A DNA stretch of 42,345 bases from Byssovorax sp. (GTDB taxonomy: Bacteria; Myxococcota_A; Polyangia; Polyangiales; Polyangiaceae), in assembly GCA_025362495.1 (NCBI GenBank), contig JANYGI010000008.1, positions 1 through 42,345 on the forward strand, written 5' to 3'. A program made the position numbers and the translations under genes. This document shows positions 3,785-42,345 of the stretch, one piece after another (position 1 is the stretch's first letter; every line of letters starts with the position of its first letter). The notes below the pieces were generated by a model, which was not told the DNA's origin, did no database searches, and saw only the letters and a program-made list of their open reading frames with translations.

Positions 3785-5944
3785 CTACTGGAGCTTGAAC
3801 ATCGCCATCGCCGAGCCGCCGCCGACGACGGTGACGCTCTTCGACTTGGTGGCGCCCGTGGAGGGCTTGCAGGTGACCGAGTAGGAGCCGGGCTTCACCT
3901 GGAGCTTCAGGGTCGACATCGTGCCTTTGGAGGCGCCGTTGACCGAGAACGCGCAGGTGCCGCCGACGGCGACAGCGACGATGGTCCCCATGTCGCCGCC
4001 GCTCGGAGGCGGGGGCGGAGGAGGCGGCGGAGGCGGCGTGACGACAGCGCCGGTCCCTTTGCCGGAGGTGGGTTTGGCCGTCGGCATCGGGCCGGAGGGC
4101 CGCGCGCTTGTCGCAGTGGGCGCGGTGGGCGCGTCGTTGACGGCGACCTTCGCGCTCGGCGTGGCGCTCGGTGATCCACCGGGATCCGCTGTTGACGGCG
4201 GGGGTGGATCGTTGACGGCGACGGCGACGCTGGCGGTGGGCGCGCCGCTGGCGGCAGCCAGCGTCGTGGGCGCGGCGCTGGCGACGACGGCCTCGCTGCC
4301 GATGGGCAGATCGCCGCCGGGGCGCCCCTTGATGATCACGAGGGCGGCTATCGCCGAGAGGACGACCACGGCGCCGCCCACGGCGATGAGCGCGATCTTC
4401 TGCCCCGCGGGCGCCGGCTTGGCGACGTTGGGCCCGCCGAGGACCGTCTGCATCGCCGCGCGCGGGAGGGCCGCCGGCATCCCCGAGCCGGGCGCGACGC
4501 CGCCGGGCGAGCTGCCAGGCGCCGAGCTCCACGGCGCGACCGACGCACGGTTGGCCTCGAGGTCCATCGACGGGCCGAGGAGCGAGCTCTGCGCCTGCTG
4601 CGGCGCTTGCTGCGGCGGAGGCGGTTGCTGGACCTGCATCCCCGAGGCGGCGCCGCCGAACATGGGCATCGCGCCTGTGGCGGGCCGGGCCGGAGGCGCC
4701 GAGGCCTGCCCGCCGCCCGCCGTCGGCGACGGGGGGACGAAGTCGGCGCCCATGAACATCGTGCGTTCGAACGGCGCGTCGGCCTCGGCCGCGGGCGGCG
4801 CGGGCAAGGGCTGCGGCGAGGAGGCGCGCTGCTGCGGCATCGGCACCGTCTGCGCGCGCGGAGGCCCGCCGGCAGCGGGCAGCGGCTTGTGGCCGGGCAT
4901 CGGCATCGGCGCGAGGTAGTCCGTGTGGACCATCGTCGGCTGATCGTCGGGATCGTCGTCGAGCTCGAGGAGATCTTCGCCGTCCATCGTGATCGGGTGA
5001 TCGCGATCGAGCTCCGGCTGCTTGCGGCGCTGCTTGGCGGCGTTGGTTATCTCGCCGATGCGCTGGATGAGCACCAGGCCTTCGGCCGACGCGAACGGGG
5101 TGAGCGCGTGCGCGAACGCGTGGACGCTGGCGAAGCGGCCGTCCGGATCTTTCGCCATGGCCCAGCCGATGATCTGATCGATTTCAGGCGGCAAATCGCG
5201 CCTGGATCGCGCGAGCGGCGGCGGATCGTCGCGCGAGATCTGGAGCATGAGCGCGGCCATCTCGCCGTCGAAGGGCGGCCGGCCGGCGAGCATCTGGTAG
5301 AGGATGGCGCCGAGCGACCACACGTCGGTGCGGACGTCGACGTGCTTGGCTTTGCGCACGAGCTCGGGCGACGAGTAGCAGGATAGCCCGAACATCGACG
5401 TCGCCGTCATCTCGCCGCCGACGCCGGGAGCCGCCGCGTCGCGCAGCAGCTTGGCCGTGCCGAAGTCGATCAGCTTGAGCGCGGTGCCGCCGCCGAGGCG
5501 CGTCGCGAGGAAGAGATGCGAGGGCTGCATCTCGCGGAGGATGATGTTGTGCGTGTGCGTCTCGGCGAGGGCCTCGCACGCCTGGAGGATGAGCCCCACC
5601 GCCTCGTTCAGCGCCATCGCCCCGCGCTTCTTCAGGTGCGCGGCGAGGTCGATGCCTTCGAGGTAGGGGCGCGCGAAGAAGAACGCGCCGTCGGGCAGCG
5701 TGCCCACGTCGAGGATGCGGGCGACGTGCTCCGACTCGAGCTTCGCGAGCGTGCGCGCCTCGCGGCGAAACCGGTCGACTTCTTTCTCGTCGCAGAGGGC
5801 GGGCGAGAGGATCCGCACCACGACGCGCTGGTCGAACTCGGTGTGGAAGGCCTCGACGAGGAACCCCCGCGTACGGCTCATTATCGCGCGGACGCGGTAC
5901 TTGCCCCCAATGACGTCGCCCGGTCTGATCGCATCGGAGCGCAT
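3785..5944 (-). CDS. Ser/Thr kinase-like protein, predicted pseudokinase, with TM segment and PEGA-like tail
   Basis: 719 aa. Residues about 12-285 have the bacterial eukaryotic-type kinase fold, but key positions differ from active kinases. The Gly-rich loop is degenerate (IMSRTRGFLVEA). The VAIK lysine is Arg44 (VVVRIL). HRDLKPxN reads LREMQPSH at 136-143, so the HRD His and Asp are Leu136 and Glu138, and the metal-binding Asn is His143. DFG (160-162), SPE (192-194) and DVWSLG are kept. Then come an acidic/Pro/Gln/Met-rich linker, one membrane helix (about 517-543), a Pro/Thr/Ala-rich region with a polyproline run, and a C-terminal PEGA-like beta domain (about 650-719). This suggests a membrane-anchored scaffold or ATP-binding sensor rather than a catalyst. 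It lies 81 bases downstream of the lipoprotein/barrel operon on the same strand. Confidence 0.88.
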   Translation of the reverse strand: MRSDAIRPGDVIGGKYRVRAIMSRTRGFLVEAFHTEFDQRVVVRILSPALCDEKEVDRFRREARTLAKLESEHVARILDVGTLPDGAFFFARPYLEGIDLAAHLKKRGAMALNEAVGLILQACEALAETHTHNIILREMQPSHLFLATRLGGGTALKLIDFGTAKLLRDAAAPGVGGEMTATSMFGLSCYSSPELVRKAKHVDVRTDVWSLGAILYQMLAGRPPFDGEMAALMLQISRDDPPPLARSRRDLPPEIDQIIGWAMAKDPDGRFASVHAFAHALTPFASAEGLVLIQRIGEITNAAKQRRKQPELDRDHPITMDGEDLLELDDDPDDQPTMVHTDYLAPMPMPGHKPLPAAGGPPRAQTVPMPQQRASSPQPLPAPPAAEADAPFERTMFMGADFVPPSPTAGGGQASAPPARPATGAMPMFGGAASGMQVQQPPPPQQAPQQAQSSLLGPSMDLEANRASVAPWSSAPGSSPGGVAPGSGMPAALPRAAMQTVLGGPNVAKPAPAGQKIALIAVGGAVVVLSAIAALVIIKGRPGGDLPIGSEAVVASAAPTTLAAASGAPTASVAVAVNDPPPPSTADPGGSPSATPSAKVAVNDAPTAPTATSARPSGPMPTAKPTSGKGTGAVVTPPPPPPPPPPPSGGDMGTIVAVAVGGTCAFSVNGASKGTMSTLKLQVKPGSYSVTCKPSTGATKSKSVTVVGGGSAMAMFKLQ

Positions 5945-6025: not shown

Positions 6026-6577
6026 CTAAAGGCCGCCGAGCGCGGCCTGGCAGTGCGGCGCGACGTCGGCGAGCTTGTCGCCACGCAGCCAGCCGAGGAG
6101 GCAGTCGTCGCCCGGTGTGCCTTGCGCGACGATGGTGCCGCCCTTGTGGCCCTCGACGCCGCGCGCCTTCTGCAAGATGAGGAGCTTCTCGGCGGACTGG
6201 CCGAAGTCGGCCGCGGCCTTGTCCATCTGCTCGGGCTCGACGTTGCACACGGCGCTGTAGTTCTGGTCGATCTCTTCGTGCGTCGTGGGCGCGCCGCCGG
6301 TGATGTTCTTCGACGCGGGATCACGCAGACCGAACTTGCCGAGGAGGCGCATCGGTCGGAGCGTCGAGCCGTGGCAGTCGAGGGTGCCGCAGCGACGCTC
6401 CATGAACGCCGACACCGCGAGCACGTCGGCGCCGCCGTCCGGGGACTCGCCCGTGAACGACGCGCGGCTCGGGCATTTGAAGGTCTGCGTCGCGGTGGCG
6501 TCGGCGCCGAGGCAGCCCGAGGCGAGGCTCGCGATCGCGGCGAGGAGGACAGCAACGATGGCAAAGCGCGGGTTCAC
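6026..6577 (-). CDS. Lipoprotein with one Cys-x4-Cys-His motif
   Basis: 183-aa predicted lipoprotein. The signal ends in LASGC with lipid Cys22. At 63-69 it has CGTLDCH followed by GSTLRPMRL, a pattern common in myxobacterial lipoproteins that resemble cytochrome c-like domains; CX4CH is a rare but documented heme c spacing, so heme attachment is possible, not proven. Further cysteines (VCNVEPEQ, DDCLLGWLRG, PHCQAAL) could form disulfides or metal sites. The start is GTG at 6577, overlapping the previous gene's TGA (GTGA), with AGGAGG just upstream; this fits translational coupling. It is the last gene of the four-gene operon that begins at 9748. Electron transfer or sensing at the envelope is inferred from the motifs and neighbours only. 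Confidence 0.75.
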   Translation of the reverse strand: MNPRFAIVAVLLAAIASLASGCLGADATATQTFKCPSRASFTGESPDGGADVLAVSAFMERRCGTLDCHGSTLRPMRLLGKFGLRDPASKNITGGAPTTHEEIDQNYSAVCNVEPEQMDKAAADFGQSAEKLLILQKARGVEGHKGGTIVAQGTPGDDCLLGWLRGDKLADVAPHCQAALGGL

Positions 6578-7122
6578 ATTCCTCCTGGGCACGCGGAGCT
6601 CGCGGCGGTGCGGCCCGCGATGATCACCCCGGGAGAACCGTGTCCGGCCCCCGTGATCGGATCCTCGCTCGTCCTGTCGGGGAGCTTGTGGCAGCTCCCG
6701 CACGAGCCGTCGCGACCGATGAGCGAGCTCATCCCGCGGTTGTCCGCCTGCGCGTTGAGGGGAAAGGTGATGTCGACCCAGTCGTCTCGCTTCACAAAGA
6801 AATTCCCTGCGGCGTTGGTGCAGGCCTTGCGAAGCCCGGAGGCGGAGTCGGAGACGATCACGTTGATGCCCACGGAGGGGACGAGCGAGCCGTCCATCGC
6901 CCTGTCGAACACGGTGCCGGCCACCGCGAAGGCCGGCGTCGCGCCGCCGTAGTTGTCGTGGCAGACGAGGCACGGCTCGCCGGGGCGGTGCGTCGCGCTC
7001 GGCGTCCCGACCTCGGGCCCGAGATCGTCGATGATCTTCTGCGGCACCGGATCGTAGCGACAGCCCACCGAGAGCGGGAGCGCCGCGGCGAGCGCGATGG
7101 CGAGGGCTGTGGCGCGCATCAT
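6574..7122 (-). CDS. Lipoprotein with two c-type heme motifs (CXXCH)
   Basis: 182-aa predicted lipoprotein (LSVGC, lipid Cys21). It has two canonical heme c motifs, CLVCH at 51-55 and CGSCH at 141-145. Between them is a beta-rich stretch (AGTVFDRAMDG, INVIVSDSASG, NAAGNFFVKRD) that looks like a carboxypeptidase-regulatory or transthyretin-like domain, so each end of that domain is flanked by a potential heme. The ATG at 7122 overlaps the stop of the barrel gene by four bases (ATGA), and its own TGA overlaps the next start (GTGA). This is the strongest cytochrome-like member of the operon. Without biochemical data, zinc or structural use of the Cys/His sites cannot be excluded. Confidence 0.8.
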   Translation of the reverse strand: MMRATALAIALAAALPLSVGCRYDPVPQKIIDDLGPEVGTPSATHRPGEPCLVCHDNYGGATPAFAVAGTVFDRAMDGSLVPSVGINVIVSDSASGLRKACTNAAGNFFVKRDDWVDITFPLNAQADNRGMSSLIGRDGSCGSCHKLPDRTSEDPITGAGHGSPGVIIAGRTAASSACPGGM

Positions 7123-9221
7123 TCCACTCCGATTTCCAGCGTCGTCGCGGTGAACAGGCCCCAGCGATCGAAGACGTAAATGTGATCGAGGAACTGCGTG
7201 TAGACGCCATCGATCTGGACGTTGATCGCGAAGATGTCGCTCAGCGCGAGGTGGGCGCCGCCGCCGACGGTGACGCCGAAGAGCGGGCCGAGCTCGCGAT
7301 CGCCGGCGCGGTACTTCGGCAGCGTCCAGCCGTCGCTCGTCTCCGTGGCGACATAGGCGCGCTGCCAGAAGTCGACCGGCCCCTGGATGTTGAAGCGCGC
7401 GTGCGGCCCGACGCGCACGGACTTCGACAGATCGAGGAGGTAACGCAGATCCGTGGTGCTGGCCTTGAGGCCCCAGGAGTCGATGTAGACGCGCTCGTCG
7501 GCGCGGAGCGTGGACGCCTCGAAGCGGTGCGCCCAGCGGCCGAGGAGTGCGAAGCGCTGGCGGTTGTCGGGGAGCTGCTCGAACGGCGCCGGCGCGAGGC
7601 GCACGCTGCCGACGAGGGCCGGCGTGGCGCCGCGCGGGATCTGCGGGGCGATGACGTCGCTGAACATCGGGATGTGCCGGTAGGGCTTCGAGGTGTCGCC
7701 CATCTCGAGCTCGGCCGTGGCGCCGATGACGACGAGCGTCGTCGGGCTCTGCACGATCGACGCGCCAGCGTCGATCGTGTGCGTGAGGATGCTGCGGGAG
7801 AACACGTCGTACGGCGTGTGCCCGCGGCCGAGCGTGTCGAAGCTCAGGTGGTACGAGAGCGTCGGCGTGACCTGCTTGTTGACGAGGTCGGCGCTGACCG
7901 AGGCGCCGACGGTGCGCGCGAAGTAGTCCGGCTCGATCGAGACGCCGCCGTCGAGGCCGACGCGCGCGGGCCCGACCTTCACTTCGGCCGAGAGCGTGCC
8001 GGCGTTGCGGACCTCGTCGAAGCGCCGCGTCGCGGTGGCGACGATGTCCGGCGAGGCGTTGGAGACGACGTCGACGGTATAGCTGCCGCCGACGCGCCAG
8101 CCCGCGGTGGGGTTCTCGGCCGAGAGGAACAGCGTCGGCGAGAAGACGTCGACCTCGCTGGTGTCGTTGTACGACGCGACCTCGAGCCCGCCGCGGATCG
8201 TGAGGCCGCGGCCCTTGCCGCCGGTCTCGATGCAGGTGTTCACGTCCGACGGCGTGCGCGCGTTCAAAATGCACTGCAAAACGGCGCTGTTGTTCGACTT
8301 GTCGTCGGTGGCGTTGACGGTGATCCGCTCGCCGCGATCGAACGACTCGGTCGACTTGAACGTGTACGGGTACGGGCCCTTCTTGCCGCCTACCTCGATC
8401 GTCGCCTTGCCCGGGTTGTGCGGGATCGGCTTGTCGGCCTTGTCTCTCGGGACGACGACGCCGTCGATCTTGATCTCGACGTTGTCGATGGTCTTCGGCA
8501 CGACGACGACGATGGTGGGCGTGTCGTTGCCGAGGCGCGTGAGGAGCTCGTCGGCCTTCTTCTTGACGTCGCCGTTGATCTCTTCCTCGGCGTATTTCTG
8601 CGCGAGCTTGGCGTCGCCCGAGGCCTCGAGGATCAGACCGCCGGTGTCCTCGCACTGCGCGAGCACGAGCTTCGCCGAGGCGAACTCGCTCTCGGCCATC
8701 GCCGCGATCGTGCCCATGCAATCGCTCCAGTTCTTCTGGGCGAGCTGTGATTGCGCCGCGGCGAGGGCGTCGAGCTGCGGCTTCGTGGGGCCGGCCTTGG
8801 TCGGCGTGGGGCCGCTGCCGGCCTTCTTCACGTTGGCCCTGGCTTCGGCGAAGATCTTGTTCAGATCCTTGGTCATGAACTGCCGATCGGGCGCGACCTT
8901 CGGGTCCTCTCGGACGGCGTTCTCGAACGAGAGGCGGGCCTTGCCGAGGTCCTTCAGGCCGGCGCCCTGCACGATGCCGATCGTCACGAGGAGCTGGGCG
9001 CGCGAGCTGCCTTCGCAAGCGGCGCCGCCGCAGGCCTTGAGCGCGTCCTCGAGCTTCTTCAACGCGCCTTCGTTCTTGCCCTCGACGAAGTCGTTGAGCG
9101 ACTCGGCCACGGCGACGAGCGCGTCGGTGTCCTTGTCACCGGCCGCCGCGAGCGCGGGCGACAGGGCGAGCGCCGCCGCGAGGACCGCGACAAAACGCTT
9201 CAATTCTCGGGGGCGCCGCAT
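7119..9221 (-). CDS. Outer-membrane beta-barrel protein with helical N-terminal domain, DUF3570-like
   Basis: About 700 aa. A signal peptide (LAAALALSPALAAAG) is followed by an alpha-helical TPR-like region (about 28-215), a short beta domain with a Val-rich strand (TIVVVVPKTIDNVEIKIDG), and a C-terminal region (about 300-700) of alternating polar/apolar strands ending in an aromatic-rich LFTATTLEIGVE, as in outer-membrane barrels. The stretch VDVVSNASPDIVATATRRFDEVR is close to the DUF3570 signature. DUF3570 barrels are known beside thioredoxin/ApbE/DUF4266 genes; the partners here are Cys-His lipoproteins instead. ATG at 9221 was chosen (GGAG 8 bases upstream); a GTG at 9230 is the alternative. 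It overlaps the upstream gene by 22 bases, so coupling is likely. Export or electron-conduit function is inference. Confidence 0.8.
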   Translation of the reverse strand: MRRPRELKRFVAVLAAALALSPALAAAGDKDTDALVAVAESLNDFVEGKNEGALKKLEDALKACGGAACEGSSRAQLLVTIGIVQGAGLKDLGKARLSFENAVREDPKVAPDRQFMTKDLNKIFAEARANVKKAGSGPTPTKAGPTKPQLDALAAAQSQLAQKNWSDCMGTIAAMAESEFASAKLVLAQCEDTGGLILEASGDAKLAQKYAEEEINGDVKKKADELLTRLGNDTPTIVVVVPKTIDNVEIKIDGVVVPRDKADKPIPHNPGKATIEVGGKKGPYPYTFKSTESFDRGERITVNATDDKSNNSAVLQCILNARTPSDVNTCIETGGKGRGLTIRGGLEVASYNDTSEVDVFSPTLFLSAENPTAGWRVGGSYTVDVVSNASPDIVATATRRFDEVRNAGTLSAEVKVGPARVGLDGGVSIEPDYFARTVGASVSADLVNKQVTPTLSYHLSFDTLGRGHTPYDVFSRSILTHTIDAGASIVQSPTTLVVIGATAELEMGDTSKPYRHIPMFSDVIAPQIPRGATPALVGSVRLAPAPFEQLPDNRQRFALLGRWAHRFEASTLRADERVYIDSWGLKASTTDLRYLLDLSKSVRVGPHARFNIQGPVDFWQRAYVATETSDGWTLPKYRAGDRELGPLFGVTVGGGAHLALSDIFAINVQIDGVYTQFLDHIYVFDRWGLFTATTLEIGVE

Positions 9222-9748
9222 GCGATCCACTCCGCGAGGGTGTCGAGCTGCTTCTTCGTCAGCTTCGTCGCAGCGGAGCCGAAGGGCATCGCCGTCCCGC
9301 AGGCGCCGTAGGGGTTGTCAGCGTCCGAGATCGCCGTGTTGCAGAGCAGCCGCGAGTCCGTCGCGTCGCAGGGCGCGATGTACGCGCCCGCCGGCCCGGG
9401 CGACTTCTTGAGCTGGTAGTTGATGAACTCGGTGTAGGCGCCGTGCGAGTCGCCGGGCTTGAGGATCATGTCGCCCTGCGGGGTGTCGCCGCCGTGGCAG
9501 AGCGCCGCGCCGGTGCAGCCCGCGGGGCCGTCGATGATCGCCGTGAAGATGTCCTTCTTGAAGCTCACCTTGCACGTGGCGGCGACGGTGCACATGCCGC
9601 CCGACGTGGCGCCGCTCGACGGGATCGGGCCCGCGTCGGGGAGGCCGAACTTGATCGACTCCTCCGACGCGCACGAGGCGATCGTCACCGTGAGCGCGAC
9701 GAGGCCGACGAGCGCGGTGGCGCGGGCCGCCACATGTTCAAGCGTCAT
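9200..9748 (-). CDS. Cys-His motif lipoprotein, first gene of the barrel operon
   Basis: 182-aa predicted lipoprotein (VTIASC, lipid Cys26). The core begins FKKDIFTAI, contains CTGAALCHGG and ends with LTKKQLDTLAEWIACGAP. This order (an xxDIxxxI helix, a Cys...Cys-His-Gly turn, and a closing W-I-x-x-G-A-P helix) is that of planctomycete/myxobacterial cytochrome c-like lipoproteins. The spacing is CX5CH, not CXXCH, so covalent heme is uncertain. More cysteines (MCTVAATC, APCDAT, LLCNTA, YGACG) suggest disulfides. It leads the operon; a promoter candidate overlaps the accC stop codon. It is related in style, not obviously by sequence, to the two lipoproteins at the operon's far end. Confidence 0.78.
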   Translation of the reverse strand: MTLEHVAARATALVGLVALTVTIASCASEESIKFGLPDAGPIPSSGATSGGMCTVAATCKVSFKKDIFTAIIDGPAGCTGAALCHGGDTPQGDMILKPGDSHGAYTEFINYQLKKSPGPAGAYIAPCDATDSRLLCNTAISDADNPYGACGTAMPFGSAATKLTKKQLDTLAEWIACGAPEN

Positions 9749-38473: not shown

Positions 38474-39571
38474 ATGACCCTCGCCCAGATGGATCCGAAC
38501 GATCTCACCCCCATTCCCCCGACCGGCCTCGCGTCGCTCGGCGAGGATTTTCCCGCCCTCCTCGGGCAGGTAAGGCCGGCGATCGAGGCGCGCCTCGACG
38601 CGATCTGGACGGCGAAGCTCGCCGCGATCCATCGCCACGGCCCCGCCGTCGTCGCCATGGCCAGCGCCGCGCGCGAGCTGACGATGCGCGGGGGCAAGCG
38701 CTTCCGCGCCGCGCTCCTCGCCGCCGTGCACGCCGGGGTCGCGCCCGAGGCCTCGCTCGAGCCGGCCCTCCAGTGCGGCGCCGCGCTCGAGCTCCTGCAA
38801 ACGTACCTGCTGATCCAGGACGACTGGATCGACAACGACGCCACGCGCCGCGGTGGGCCGAGCGTCCACGTGATCCTCGGCGCCGAGCTGGGCGAGCGCT
38901 TCGGCGCCGCGTCGGCGATCCTGGCCAGCGATTTCACCTGGGGCATGGCCCTGGCGACGATCGCGGCGATCGACGTCCCGCCCGCCCGCGTCGTCGAGGT
39001 GATGGCGCTCTACCTGCGCATCCACGAGGACGTCGTCATCGGTCAGCAGATCGACGTGCTCGGCCGCGCCGAGGACGTCGAGGCGATGCACGATCTCAAG
39101 ACCGGGAGCTACACCGTGCGCGGGCCGATCGCCCTCGGCGCGGCGCTCGCGGGAGCGTCCCCGTCGGCGCGTGCGGCGCTCGATCGCTACGCCGCGCCGC
39201 TCGGCGTGGCCTTCCAGCTCCGCGACGATCTGCTCGGCACCTTCGGCACCACCGAGGAGACGGGCAAGCCCCTCGGCAGCGATCTTCGCACCGGCAAGCG
39301 CACGGCGATCCTGGCCGAGGCCGAGCACCGGCTCGACGCCGCGGGGCGCGAGATCCTCGACCGCGCCTTCAATCATCTCGACGCGAGCGAGGCCGACGTC
39401 GCGGCGGCGACGGCGGCGCTGCAGACCTGCGGCGCGCGCGCCGAGGTCGAGCGTCGGCTCGCCAGCTTGTGCGACGACGCCGAGGCGCTCGCCGCGGATC
39501 TCCCGCTCGCGCCCGCCGCGAAGGAGATGCTGGCCGGAGCGGCGCGCGCGCTGCGAAAAGGCCCTGAATGA
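38474..39571 (+). CDS. Polyprenyl diphosphate synthase (short-chain, likely GGPP or FPP synthase)
   Basis: 365 aa. It has the head-to-tail prenyltransferase motifs: RGGKRFR (72-78), first Asp-rich motif DDWID (116-120), KT (209-210), and second motif DDLLG (251-255, reduced from DDxxD as is usual in bacteria). The residue five positions before the first Asp is Tyr111; an aromatic there usually limits products to C15-C20. ATG 38474 was taken; an ATG at 38453 lies inside a TAGTCT -10-like element (38457-38462) and is less likely. No Shine-Dalgarno sequence is visible, so the mRNA may be leaderless. It heads the mevalonate operon: its last bases overlap the mevalonate kinase start (ATGA). Confidence 0.9.
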   Translation: MTLAQMDPNDLTPIPPTGLASLGEDFPALLGQVRPAIEARLDAIWTAKLAAIHRHGPAVVAMASAARELTMRGGKRFRAALLAAVHAGVAPEASLEPALQCGAALELLQTYLLIQDDWIDNDATRRGGPSVHVILGAELGERFGAASAILASDFTWGMALATIAAIDVPPARVVEVMALYLRIHEDVVIGQQIDVLGRAEDVEAMHDLKTGSYTVRGPIALGAALAGASPSARAALDRYAAPLGVAFQLRDDLLGTFGTTEETGKPLGSDLRTGKRTAILAEAEHRLDAAGREILDRAFNHLDASEADVAAATAALQTCGARAEVERRLASLCDDAEALAADLPLAPAAKEMLAGAARALRKGPE

Positions 39572-40515
39572 GCAGAGCTCACGGCGCTGCCCACGGTAAG
39601 GTGATCCTCCTCGGTGAGCACGCGGTCGTGTACGGCGCGCCGGCGCTCGCGGCGGGGATCGAGCGCGGCGCGACGGCGACCGCGACGACGCTCGCGCCCG
39701 GCGAGGCGAGCCGGCTCGTGCTCGGCGGCGACACGATCCTCGCGGATCCGGCCTCGACCGACGATCGCGCCCGCGCCTTCGCCGCGCTGCTGGCCGAGGG
39801 ACGCGAGGCGCCCAGCGTCCTCGTCGAGGCCGCGAGCGAGCTGCCCGCGGGCGGCGGCCTCGGCAGCTCGGCGGCGATCGGCGTCGCCGCGGGGCGCGCC
39901 GTGGCGAGCCTCTTCGACCCGGAAATCGAGGGCGAATCGGCTGCCCGCGCCGTGGCCTGGGAGCGGATCTTTCACGGCAACCCGTCGGGGATCGACACCG
40001 CGGCGGCGGCGATCGGCGGCTGCTTCCGCTTCACGCGCGAGCACGGCGCGCACCCGATCCCGGTGGCGCGGCCGCTGGTGCTCGCCATCGGCTGGAGCGG
40101 CAGCTCGTCGTCGACGCGGACGATGGTCGAGGGCGTAGCCCGCCTCCGCGCGCGCAAGCCCGCCATGGTCGACAAATCGATCGCCGGCATCGCCGCGCTC
40201 GTCGACAACGCGGCGCTCGCCGTCGAGGCCGGCGATCTGCTCGGCCTCGGCCGCCTCTTCGATCTCAACCAGATGATCCTCGCCGGCCTCCTGCTCTCGA
40301 CCGAGGCCATCGAGGACATGTGCGCGACGGCCCGCGCCGCCGGCGCGCTCGGCGCCAAGCTCACCGGCGCCGGCGGCGGCGGCTCGGTGATCGCCCTCGT
40401 CGGAGCGAGCCAGAGCGCCGACGAAGACGCCTCCGCCGCCATGATCCTCGCCGCGTGGCGCGCCGCCGGCTTCAGCGGGTTCGTCACCCGCGTCGGCATC
40501 CCTCAAGGAGTCTGA
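39568..40515 (+). CDS. mvk: Mevalonate kinase
   Basis: 315 aa GHMP kinase phosphorylating mevalonate to 5-phosphomevalonate. N-terminal GKVILLGEHAVVYGAPALA contains the mevalonate-kinase signature GEHAVVYG. The ATP-binding loop is LPAGGGLGSSAAI. HGNPSGIDTAAAAIGG holds the catalytic Asp. The C-terminal GAKLTGAGGGGSVIALV is the third GHMP motif. Order in the operon (after a prenyl synthase, before the decarboxylase) agrees. A four-base ATGA overlap at the start and a one-base TGATG overlap at the end indicate translational coupling. Confidence 0.96.
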   Translation: MSRAHGAAHGKVILLGEHAVVYGAPALAAGIERGATATATTLAPGEASRLVLGGDTILADPASTDDRARAFAALLAEGREAPSVLVEAASELPAGGGLGSSAAIGVAAGRAVASLFDPEIEGESAARAVAWERIFHGNPSGIDTAAAAIGGCFRFTREHGAHPIPVARPLVLAIGWSGSSSSTRTMVEGVARLRARKPAMVDKSIAGIAALVDNAALAVEAGDLLGLGRLFDLNQMILAGLLLSTEAIEDMCATARAAGALGAKLTGAGGGGSVIALVGASQSADEDASAAMILAAWRAAGFSGFVTRVGIPQGV

Positions 40516-41516
40516 TGAACACCGCACCCGGGCGGGCCACGGCCGTCGCTCACCCCAACATCGCCCTCTCGAAATACTGGGGCAAGCGCGACTTCGGGCA
40601 CAACCTGCCCGCCGTGCCGAGCCTCTCCGTCACGCTCGCCGGGATGGCCACCACGACGACCGTCGTCTTCGATCCCGCGCTCGCGACCGACGCGTTCACC
40701 CTCGGCGGACAGCCGGCAAAAGAAGGCGATCTCCGCCGCGTCACCTCGCTCCTCGATCGCGTCCGCGCCGCCGCGAGCCTCACCACCCGCGCGAATGTTT
40801 TGAGCTCCAACGATTTCCCCACGGCGGCCGGCCTGGCCTCGAGCGCCTCGGCCTTCGCGGCGCTGGCGCTCGCGGCGACGTCGGCGGCGGGGCTCGCGTG
40901 GGACGGCGCGCAGTGCAGCGATCTGGCGCGCAAGAGCTCGGTCTCGGCGGCGCGATCGGTCTTCGGTGGCTTCGTCGAGCTCCGCGACGGGCACCCCGGC
41001 GACGAGGATCTCGCGGCCGCGAGCGTCGCTCCGGCCGATCATTTCCCGCTGCGGGTGCTCGTCGCCGTGACGCGGGAGGGGCCCAAATCCACGCTGTCCA
41101 CCGAGGGAATGCTCCACACGCAGCGCACGAGCCCGTTCTACCCGCCGTGGGTCGAGACGGCTCCGGCGCTCTTCGCCCGCGTGCGCGCCGCGGTGCTCGC
41201 CGGCGATCTGCCCACGCTCGGCGTCGCCGCCGAGGAGAGCGCGCTCCGGATGCACGCCGCGGCGATCGCCGCGTGCCCGGGCCTGATTTACTGGGCCGGC
41301 GCCACGGTCGAGGTGATCGAAGAGGTGAAGCGCCTCCGCGCCGCGGGGCTCCCCGCGTGGTTCACCATCGACGCCGGGCCGCACGTCAAGGTCCTCACCA
41401 CGCCCGAGCGCGAAGACGACGTCGCCCTGGCCCTCGCCGCCGTGCCCGGCGTGAAGCGGACGATCCGCACGCGCCCGGGGGGCCCCGCGATCCTCGTCCC
41501 CGAAGCCACGCCGTGA
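40515..41516 (+). CDS. mvaD: Diphosphomevalonate decarboxylase
   Basis: 333 aa. It makes isopentenyl diphosphate from diphosphomevalonate with ATP. Diagnostic segments: HPNIALSKYWGKRD near the N-terminus, PSLSVTL, SSNDFPTAAGLASSASAFAAL (the ATP loop), ARKSSVSAARSVFGGFVELRDG, and AWFTIDAGPHVKVL with the catalytic Asp. ATG 40515 has AAGGAG 5 bases upstream and shares one base with the mvk stop (TGATG); an earlier in-frame ATG lies inside mvk in the wrong reading context. The stop overlaps the next gene (GTGA). Confidence 0.96.
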   Translation: MNTAPGRATAVAHPNIALSKYWGKRDFGHNLPAVPSLSVTLAGMATTTTVVFDPALATDAFTLGGQPAKEGDLRRVTSLLDRVRAAASLTTRANVLSSNDFPTAAGLASSASAFAALALAATSAAGLAWDGAQCSDLARKSSVSAARSVFGGFVELRDGHPGDEDLAAASVAPADHFPLRVLVAVTREGPKSTLSTEGMLHTQRTSPFYPPWVETAPALFARVRAAVLAGDLPTLGVAAEESALRMHAAAIAACPGLIYWAGATVEVIEEVKRLRAAGLPAWFTIDAGPHVKVLTTPEREDDVALALAAVPGVKRTIRTRPGGPAILVPEATP

Positions 41517-42345
41517 TCGCGCGCGCCCCGGGGAAGATCGTGCTCTCCGGCGCCTACGCGGTGCTCGAGGGCGCGCCGTCGATCGTCGCCGCCGTCGATC
41601 GTGGTGTCGTCGCCGACGCCTCGCGCCCCGCGGCGTTCGTGACCGACGAGGTGCGCGCCGCGATCGAGGCCGGCGTCATCGATCGCGCGCCGTGGTTCGA
41701 CGCCTCGGCCCTGCGCACCTCGCTCCCCGACGGCACGAGCCGCAAGCTCGGCCTCGGCTCCAGCGCGGCGATCCTCGTCGCCTCGATCGCGGCCGTCGCC
41801 GGCGAGCGCCTGCTGCGCGGATCGACGGGCTCCCTCGCGTCGGAGGTCTTCCCCCTCGCGTATGCCGCGCATCGCGCCGCCCAGCCGGGCGGGAGCGGGA
41901 TCGACGTCGGCGCCAGCGCGCACGGCGGGGTGATCACCGCGAAGATCCGCGAAAATAAGCTCGAGATCGCGCCCCATCCGCTCCCCGCGGGCACGGTGGT
42001 CGAGGTCTTCGCGAGCCCGGTCTCGGCCTCGACCGGCGATCTCATCCGCAAGGTGCGGGCCTTTGCGGCCGCGGATCCCGCGCGCTACCGCCGCCTGCTC
42101 GACGCGGCCGCGCGCGGCTCGCACGCCGCGATCGCCGCGAGCACCACGGCCGAGCTCGTCGCCGCGATCGGCGTCCAGCTCGACGCGCTGGCCGAGCTCG
42201 GCGACGCCTCGGGCGCGGGGATCGTCACGCCGGAGGTCGCCGCGATTCGCCTCGAAGCGGCGGCCGAAGGCGCGATCTTCGGCCCCAGCGGCGCGGGCGG
42301 CGGCGACATCGCCGTGTACCTCGGCGGCGCGCCGTCGAGCGAGCG
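41513..42345 (+). CDS. Phosphomevalonate kinase (partial, runs off the window)
   Basis: The first ~277 residues of a GHMP kinase. GTG at 41513 overlaps the mvaD TGA by four bases. Motifs: RAPGKIVLSGAYAVLEGAPSIV at the N-terminus, KLGLGSSAAILVA as the ATP loop, GGSGIDVGASAHGG, and FGPSGAGGGD near the window end as the third GHMP motif. The phosphomevalonate-kinase call follows from the GAYAVLEG signature and the operon position. With the preceding genes it completes mevalonate to isopentenyl diphosphate. HMG-CoA synthase/reductase and an isomerase are not in the window and may lie beyond it. Confidence 0.92.
   Translation, partial: MIARAPGKIVLSGAYAVLEGAPSIVAAVDRGVVADASRPAAFVTDEVRAAIEAGVIDRAPWFDASALRTSLPDGTSRKLGLGSSAAILVASIAAVAGERLLRGSTGSLASEVFPLAYAAHRAAQPGGSGIDVGASAHGGVITAKIRENKLEIAPHPLPAGTVVEVFASPVSASTGDLIRKVRAFAAADPARYRRLLDAAARGSHAAIAASTTAELVAAIGVQLDALAELGDASGAGIVTPEVAAIRLEAAAEGAIFGPSGAGGGDIAVYLGGAPSSE

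Follow-up and report, generated by a model that had tools for sequence, protein, structure and literature searches.

The four minus strand genes at positions 6026-9748 of the window (the whole 42,345-nucleotide stretch analysed here, from Byssovorax sp. contig JANYGI010000008.1) are read here, with modest confidence, as an outer-membrane redox conduit. A DUF3570 barrel (B), possibly flavinylated, would work together with c-type heme lipoproteins (A, C and D), i.e., as a heme-equipped variant of the DUF3570 flavin system. This reading draws on a predicted barrel, conserved heme-type motifs with candidate ligands, linkage of B, C and D across genomes, kinship with ApbE/DUF4266/thioredoxin loci, retention of the residues that would accept flavin, and the presence of Ccm and ApbE in the same genome. 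The modification of DUF3570 barrels by flavin is already known; the heme-type lipoprotein partners have no counterpart in the papers searched.

Gene order and the barrel protein

The initial annotation of this DNA had described four overlapping minus strand genes, three of them encoding lipoproteins with CX5CH, two CXXCH and CX4CH motifs and the fourth a TPR-like domain followed by a DUF3570-like barrel, and all of these features were recovered (Table 1). Genes D and C share GTGA at 6574-6577 and genes C and B share ATGA at 7119-7122, each an overlap of 4 bases. The overlap of B with A is 22 bases when B starts at ATG 9221, or 4 bases when it starts at TTG 9203, the start picked by a codon-usage gene caller. 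Lipobox-like signals on A, C and D were judged by eye. A search of NCBIfam gave sub-threshold matches only, and a promoter and terminator scan returned no promoter and one terminator-like site on the plus strand, fewer than in shuffled sequences. A Ser/Thr protein kinase gene (3785-5944, minus strand, Pfam) begins about 80 bases after D; because five sister loci (L038-L041 and L043) likewise have a related, co-oriented kinase gene after D, it may belong to the unit in the window's clade.

Table 1 Features of the operon. Residues of gene C are numbered as in P0003, counted from ATG 7119.
Feature	Position	Strand	Basis
Gene A: lipoprotein predicted to be a class I-like cytochrome c with one heme (CX5CH, Met154, C-terminal helix)	9200..9748	-	Homologue alignment and weak profile relatives
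A, CTGAALCH heme-type motif (CX5CH)	9494..9517	-	Sequence, homologue alignment
Gene B: signal peptide (by eye), TPR-like/beta domain and DUF3570 16-strand barrel	7119..9221	-	Pfam, AlphaFold2; alternative start TTG 9203
B residues 31-303: TPR-like helices and small beta domain, presumed to lie in the periplasm	8313..9131	-	AlphaFold2 secondary structure
B residues 341-699: 16-strand barrel	7125..8201	-	AlphaFold2 model, PDB barrel matches
B, DVVSNAS (384-390): DUF3570 flavin site 1 position, degenerate	8052..8072	-	Alignment with [S/T]GA[S/T] sites of ApbE-linked DUF3570
B, DIVATAT (392-398): DUF3570 flavin site 2 position, degenerate	8028..8048	-	Alignment with ApbE-linked DUF3570
Gene C: lipoprotein, two CXXCH flanking the middle part; H44 and M130 candidate distal ligands	6574..7122	-	Alignment, profile
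C, CLVCH	6958..6972	-	Sequence, homologue alignment
C, CGSCH	6688..6702	-	Sequence, homologue alignment
Gene D: lipoprotein with CGTLDCH (CX4CH) and invariant H144 (HKGG)	6026..6577	-	Alignment, genome scans
D, CGTLDCH	6371..6391	-	Sequence, homologue alignment

B matched DUF3570 (PF12094) at 64.1 bits against a Pfam cut-off of 25 (E 1.4e-17, residues 382-675). Its AlphaFold2 model, generated from a 37-sequence alignment, had a mean pLDDT of 88 and a pTM of 0.57, and comprises ten helices (31-233), a small beta domain (236-303) and 16 strands between residues 341 and 699, i.e., a predicted barrel and no soluble fold. According to the strand list of the model, the eight loops after odd strands have 2-44 residues each (121 in total) and the seven turns after even strands 2-6 residues each (25 in total), which is the pattern expected when both ends of the barrel lie in the periplasm. 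Matches in the PDB were generic barrels (OmpG, CymA, a PgaA-type barrel, PelB, BcsC and BamA). No Pfam TPR model matched B itself, and TPR and PEGA matches were found only on a B-related protein (L041:10507-11616). No CXnCH motif is present in B, and plasmid records searched for relatives of B yielded none.

The same gene order was found widely in other myxobacteria. Loci of relatives were picked by hand from the listed matches, and 40 were fetched around hand-picked relatives of B; 39 passed the filter, with C and D near the barrel in 37 of them (the exceptions being L053, with C only, and L063, with C further off). Junctions in these loci are often short or overlapping, and A lies nearby on either strand in many. 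When the GTDB species genomes were scanned with a single close D pattern, 107 stretches came up, of which 100 were confirmed and the best 80 of 100 kept; these come, several per genome, from entries titled myxobacteria or, for some MAGs, delta-/proteobacteria. Minicystis rosea and Polyangium fumosum are among the relatives found to have D loci. Among these best 80 of 100 loci, C lies directly upstream of D in 79, B lies upstream of D within 3.5 kb in 73, and both C and B are upstream in 72. The other eight consist of three at contig ends, two with B downstream, two without B (L170 and L222) and one whose C and D matches overlap. D-like proteins are encoded in 38 of the 235 genomes that make up a phylum sample; 49 of 59 D-like places are within 10 kb of a DUF3570 match, as is a D-like protein in 35/38 genomes and, outside the window's own family, in 27/30 genomes spread over 11 families. 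The four-gene set is conserved in myxobacteria of the Polyangium group and is no oddity of one strain.

Three more DUF3570 barrels are encoded in the same genome (L045, G000:C13; L116, G000:C159; L117, G000:C123), one accompanied by A, DUF4266, C and D, another by DUF4266 and D-like genes, and one by DUF4266 with no match to A, C or D. The genome also carries two tandem C-family matches (G000:C163:14673-16162; L228 and L229), each with one internal stop codon.

Kinship with flavinylated DUF3570 barrels

ApbE is described as flavinylating DUF3570 proteins at two [S/T]GA[S/T] sites (Meheust et al. 2021, PMC8238504), and DUF3570 genes are reported to sit with DUF4266 and thioredoxin-like genes, sometimes also with DsbD; the function of the barrels is called uncertain there. 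This was the only paper found in our literature search that names DUF3570 or DUF4266. The string "Myxoco" is absent from its main text, while its supplementary gene-cluster lists may tabulate a myxobacterial DUF3570 cluster. Iron transporters are reported in 25 DUF3570 clusters (eLife report), which we take as a lead only.

In other families of the phylum, most loci contain a thioredoxin-like gene, DUF4266, a DUF3570 barrel with two strict motifs, and ApbE. Many Polyangiales loci retain DUF4266 and the thioredoxin-like gene, both Pfam-confirmed in the own-genome paralogue L045, and the presence of these genes in sister loci and in the paralogue ties the window's system to the published one. 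A DUF2271-type protein was found between the barrel and C or D in L063, L065, L071 and L075 (Pfam-checked in L065), and that of L071 has a TGAT-type flavin motif. The window locus itself has no ApbE, DUF4266 or thioredoxin match. In a quick tree of 60 of 61 barrels (SH-aLRT support only, some long branches, fragment L075 omitted), the B-C-D label required two changes versus 17.4 in shuffles. The window barrel belongs to a supported clade of seven without any DUF4266 or thioredoxin match, and seven barrels of a neighbouring clade of eight keep both. Judged by these sequence relationships, the locus branched off from the ApbE/DUF4266/thioredoxin DUF3570 system and is no separate pairing. DUF4266 lipoproteins (L045:9383-9631, L046:9770-10009 and others) have a near-fixed GCGCN end after a Gly-rich stretch.

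A search for the strict [S/T]GA[S/T] motif found none in B (P0002). At the aligned site positions, B reads SNAS (putative acceptor S390) and ATAT (putative acceptor T398), with Asn and Thr where the flavin motif has Gly. D384, A389, S390, D392 and A397 are invariant in the 37-row alignment of B. Site counts were made after two non-barrel TPR rows were dropped, on an alignment that omits barrels shorter than 300 aa or with E above 1e-15. Among the 57 heme-linked barrels (those whose locus has a match to C or D), the acceptor Ser/Thr is present at both sites in 57/57, the pattern D..[ST].A[ST] at site 1 in 55/57 and D..[STA].A[ST] at site 2 in 57/57. The strict Gly motif is retained in 3/57 at site 1 and in 2/57 at site 2. 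ApbE-linked barrels without C or D (n = 14) have the strict motif in 14 cases at site 1 and in 13 at site 2, and one of four barrels with neither ApbE nor C/D lacks site 2. The tandem motif occurred in 0/822 control genes versus 131/158 barrel ORFs, a set that includes duplicate loci of the same genomes; the 27 barrel ORFs without it comprise fragments, canonical barrels, of which many have E or Q for the first Asp, and a few real departures such as L128 and L136. The Pfam match of B starts only at about profile position 100, and an N-terminal DUF3570 deletion was considered on that ground; the idea was dropped, as the alignment shows both acceptor positions to be kept.

In the model of B, both site positions are placed in the loop that joins strands 3 and 4 (387-402), which is extracellular by standard barrel topology. 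This loop is the least confident part of the barrel (mean pLDDT of 53 for residues 391-400).

Flavinylation of B in trans by the ApbE of the genome appears plausible from these alignments, since Gly-to-Ala exchange is reported to lower flavinylation to about 50% in one target and loss of the Asp from the motif to matter little (review PMC12052999). The genome's single ApbE match is on contig C118, a lipoprotein-like gene as judged by eye. Scans of its neighbours identified a kinase and a methyltransferase and, 5-7 kb away, a Fur-family regulator and a pyridine nucleotide-disulphide oxidoreductase. ApbE has at least one further candidate target in the genome, an FMN_bind protein with DIDIVSGAS; NqrB/RnfD and DUF2271 were searched for as targets and not found in the genome. 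In the phylum sample, ApbE is present in 73/74 genomes with DUF3570 versus 114/161 others (p 4.5e-8), and in the window's own class in 31/31 versus 8/17, a co-occurrence that may stem from genome size or descent.

Loss of flavin offers the best surviving alternative, in which heme replaced it: the Polyangiales barrel would have lost flavinylation and would work with heme lipoproteins only, the D-x-x-S-x-A-S repeats being a structural relic. This was first favoured because the strict motif search came up empty, and was demoted to a rival because the alignment showed both acceptor positions to be kept. The near-complete loss of the motif Gly among heme-linked barrels speaks for it, as do the absence of ApbE from the window locus and the flavin/heme swaps described in other systems (PMC8238504). 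Against it stand the invariant residues and the acceptors retained in every heme-linked barrel, the near-universal presence of ApbE in DUF3570 genomes, and the loci that combine D with ApbE. ApbE occurs in 8/57 heme-linked loci (Pfam-confirmed in L066, L121 and L120), five of which lack the Gly motif at either site (L066, L119, L120, L121 and L128) and three of which have it at site 1 (L133, L134 and L137). In the rival's favour, a C-and-D type locus with ApbE was seen only once, in L066, where ApbE sits on the opposite strand about 4 kb away from the barrel; the other seven have D without C. On balance, we consider loss of flavinylation doubtful. The combination of a heme-type lipoprotein, a strict flavin motif and ApbE in L133, L134 and L137 suggests that flavin and heme parts can meet at one barrel.

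Heme-type motifs in the lipoproteins

Alignments of A, C and D comprised 19-20 members each, hand-picked as near full length, and shorter calls of gene C with one motif left were kept out. C78, C84, H85, M154, P155 and W174 of A are invariant in 20 aligned homologues; both CXXCH motifs, H44 and M130 of C in 19; and C63, C68, H69 and H144 of D in 20. The invariance of the motifs in aligned homologues, together with the wide recurrence of the gene order, places them beyond chance. From the same invariance, M154 of A, H44 and M130 of C, and H144 of D are candidate distal heme ligands. By these sequence features, A, C and D look like c-type cytochrome lipoproteins, with one or two CXnCH motifs each (A one, C two, D one).

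Profile and structure searches gave weak matches. The best solved relatives of the A profile were FoxE (E 0.004, a sum over two domains, each insignificant alone) and hydrazine synthase alpha (E 0.01), both of them c-type heme proteins. FoxE aligned with A over the heme motif, the Met-Pro pair and the last helix, and hydrazine synthase alpha over the heme motif and the last helix. The best matches of the C profile were cytochromes, also weak (SoxA, E 0.014), for which the CXXCH of C may by itself account. The AlphaFold2 model of D (pLDDT 83) had no match among solved structures (best Foldseek E 1.4, with a like result in a second structural search), nor did the D profile, an absence that rules out no family. 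No cytochrome Pfam model scored above its cut-off on A, C or D. CcmF and CcmH are encoded next to each other in the genome, and a CcmC-like PF01578 protein is encoded at another place, so cytochrome c maturation genes, which the initial annotation had proposed to look for, are present.

The motifs could in principle serve another purpose, with A, C and D acting as disulfide- or metal-binding lipoproteins in assembly or in the handling of copper/iron. The unusual CX4CH and CX5CH motifs, together with the missing Pfam matches and the unmatched fold of D, lend this explanation some weight. We nevertheless regard it as improbable, given that the His and a second candidate ligand are invariant together with both Cys, that the A profile leads to heme proteins, if weakly, and that some linked loci in other families have long multi-CXXCH proteins. 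Literature on the CX4CH motif touches iron oxidisers.

In loci of other families (L119-L124, L131, L132, L134 and L137), the neighbours of a D-like protein and a barrel include long proteins of about 700-990 aa that have CXXCH and CX4CH motifs. Pfam scans of three such proteins gave beta-propeller-type matches in all, HZS_alpha in one and di-heme peroxidase in one. These loci are possibly a larger version of the system.

A putative conduit and its relation to known systems

From the features above, we infer that A, C and D would carry covalently attached heme, that B may carry flavin, and that B may form a physical complex with the lipoproteins. In the conduit we favour, the barrel of B would sit in the outer membrane with its N-terminal domain in the periplasm, and A, C and D, located at the outer membrane, would together bear about four covalently bound c-type hemes and either give electrons to the barrel or take them from it. 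The strand 3-4 loop of B would probably still bear one or two covalent FMNs, added in trans by the single genomic ApbE. The conduit would link electron carriers of the periplasm to a partner located at the outer membrane or outside it. A single electron hop would not span the distance from periplasmic hemes to flavins in an extracellular loop, so a lipoprotein would have to reach into the barrel or the loop would have to bend inward. A more specific form of this proposal, i.e., a new class of outer-membrane conduit with a 16-strand barrel showing two covalent FMNs in an extracellular or lumen-facing loop and fed by about four hemes on three lipoproteins, is put forward tentatively, as possible at best. 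If true, flavin and heme would be joined in one transmembrane wire, which would explain the purpose of DUF3570 barrels.

The closest described relative is the ApbE/DUF3570/DUF4266/thioredoxin (DsbD-type) system (PMC8238504), with which the window shares the DUF3570 barrel and a pair of aligned acceptor sites; in addition, its sister loci and an own-genome paralogue have DUF4266 and thioredoxin-like genes, and the genome encodes ApbE. In contrast to that system, the window operon has dedicated heme-type lipoproteins (C and D, and also A) and degenerate flavin motifs, its ApbE lies outside the locus, and its clade is without DUF4266 or thioredoxin matches. Cyc2, an Fe(II) oxidase, is described as a predicted 16-strand barrel plugged by one fused heme domain (PMC8406198). 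Like Cyc2, the window operon is predicted to pair a 16-strand barrel of the outer membrane with small cytochromes of few hemes; it differs in having separate lipoproteins instead of a fused mono-heme domain, a DUF3570 barrel and possible flavin sites. With MtrCAB and other porin-cytochrome complexes, the window shares a barrel and (here predicted) c-type cytochromes at the outer membrane, but the MtrCAB barrel has 26 strands and a deca-heme insert (PMC8406198), as against 16 predicted strands and about four hemes on three small lipoproteins in place of deca-heme proteins. Dedicated heme-type lipoproteins, conserved in Polyangiales and represented by D-like members in 11 further families of the phylum sample, point to outer-membrane electron transfer unlike that of MtrCAB or Cyc2.

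The initial annotation had offered two readings of the operon, a minimal porin-cytochrome or an export system with redox-active lipoproteins. The former fits the evidence assembled here, and export has little in its favour beyond the generic likeness of a TPR region and a 16-strand barrel. Exporters of exopolysaccharides such as BcsC, PgaA and PelB have a periplasmic TPR region followed by a 16-strand barrel, as B does with its TPR-like region. That B is a channel secreting a polymer or protein, with structural or metal-binding Cys-His lipoproteins, is very improbable: BcsC, the PgaA-type barrel and PelB are among its nearest folds, but any 16-strand barrel is expected to yield such matches, many short relatives of B (about 360-450 aa) keep the B-C-D order without the TPR part, sister or related loci hold thioredoxin, DUF4266, DUF2271 and ApbE, the conserved partners look redox-active, and no polymer synthase is encoded among the 11 neighbouring genes scanned. 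By Pfam, these neighbours include RNase T2, PA14-like, GST, kinase, biotin carboxylase, biotinyl carrier, dehydroquinase and aconitase, among others, and no glycosyltransferase, a result that concerns the locus only, as a synthase may be encoded elsewhere in the genome.

The initial annotation had also stated that no described system has this composition. Our literature search, which covered myxobacterial outer-membrane cytochromes and the pairing of flavinylated barrels with cytochromes, likewise found nothing on this gene set. What the initial annotation had missed is the descent of the locus from the ApbE/DUF3570 lineage and the retention of both putative flavin acceptor positions in degenerate form.

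Further along the window (38474-42343, plus strand) lies a row of isoprenoid genes, consisting of a polyprenyl synthetase, a GHMP kinase, a diphosphomevalonate decarboxylase and a further GHMP-kinase-like gene that scored just under its cut-off.
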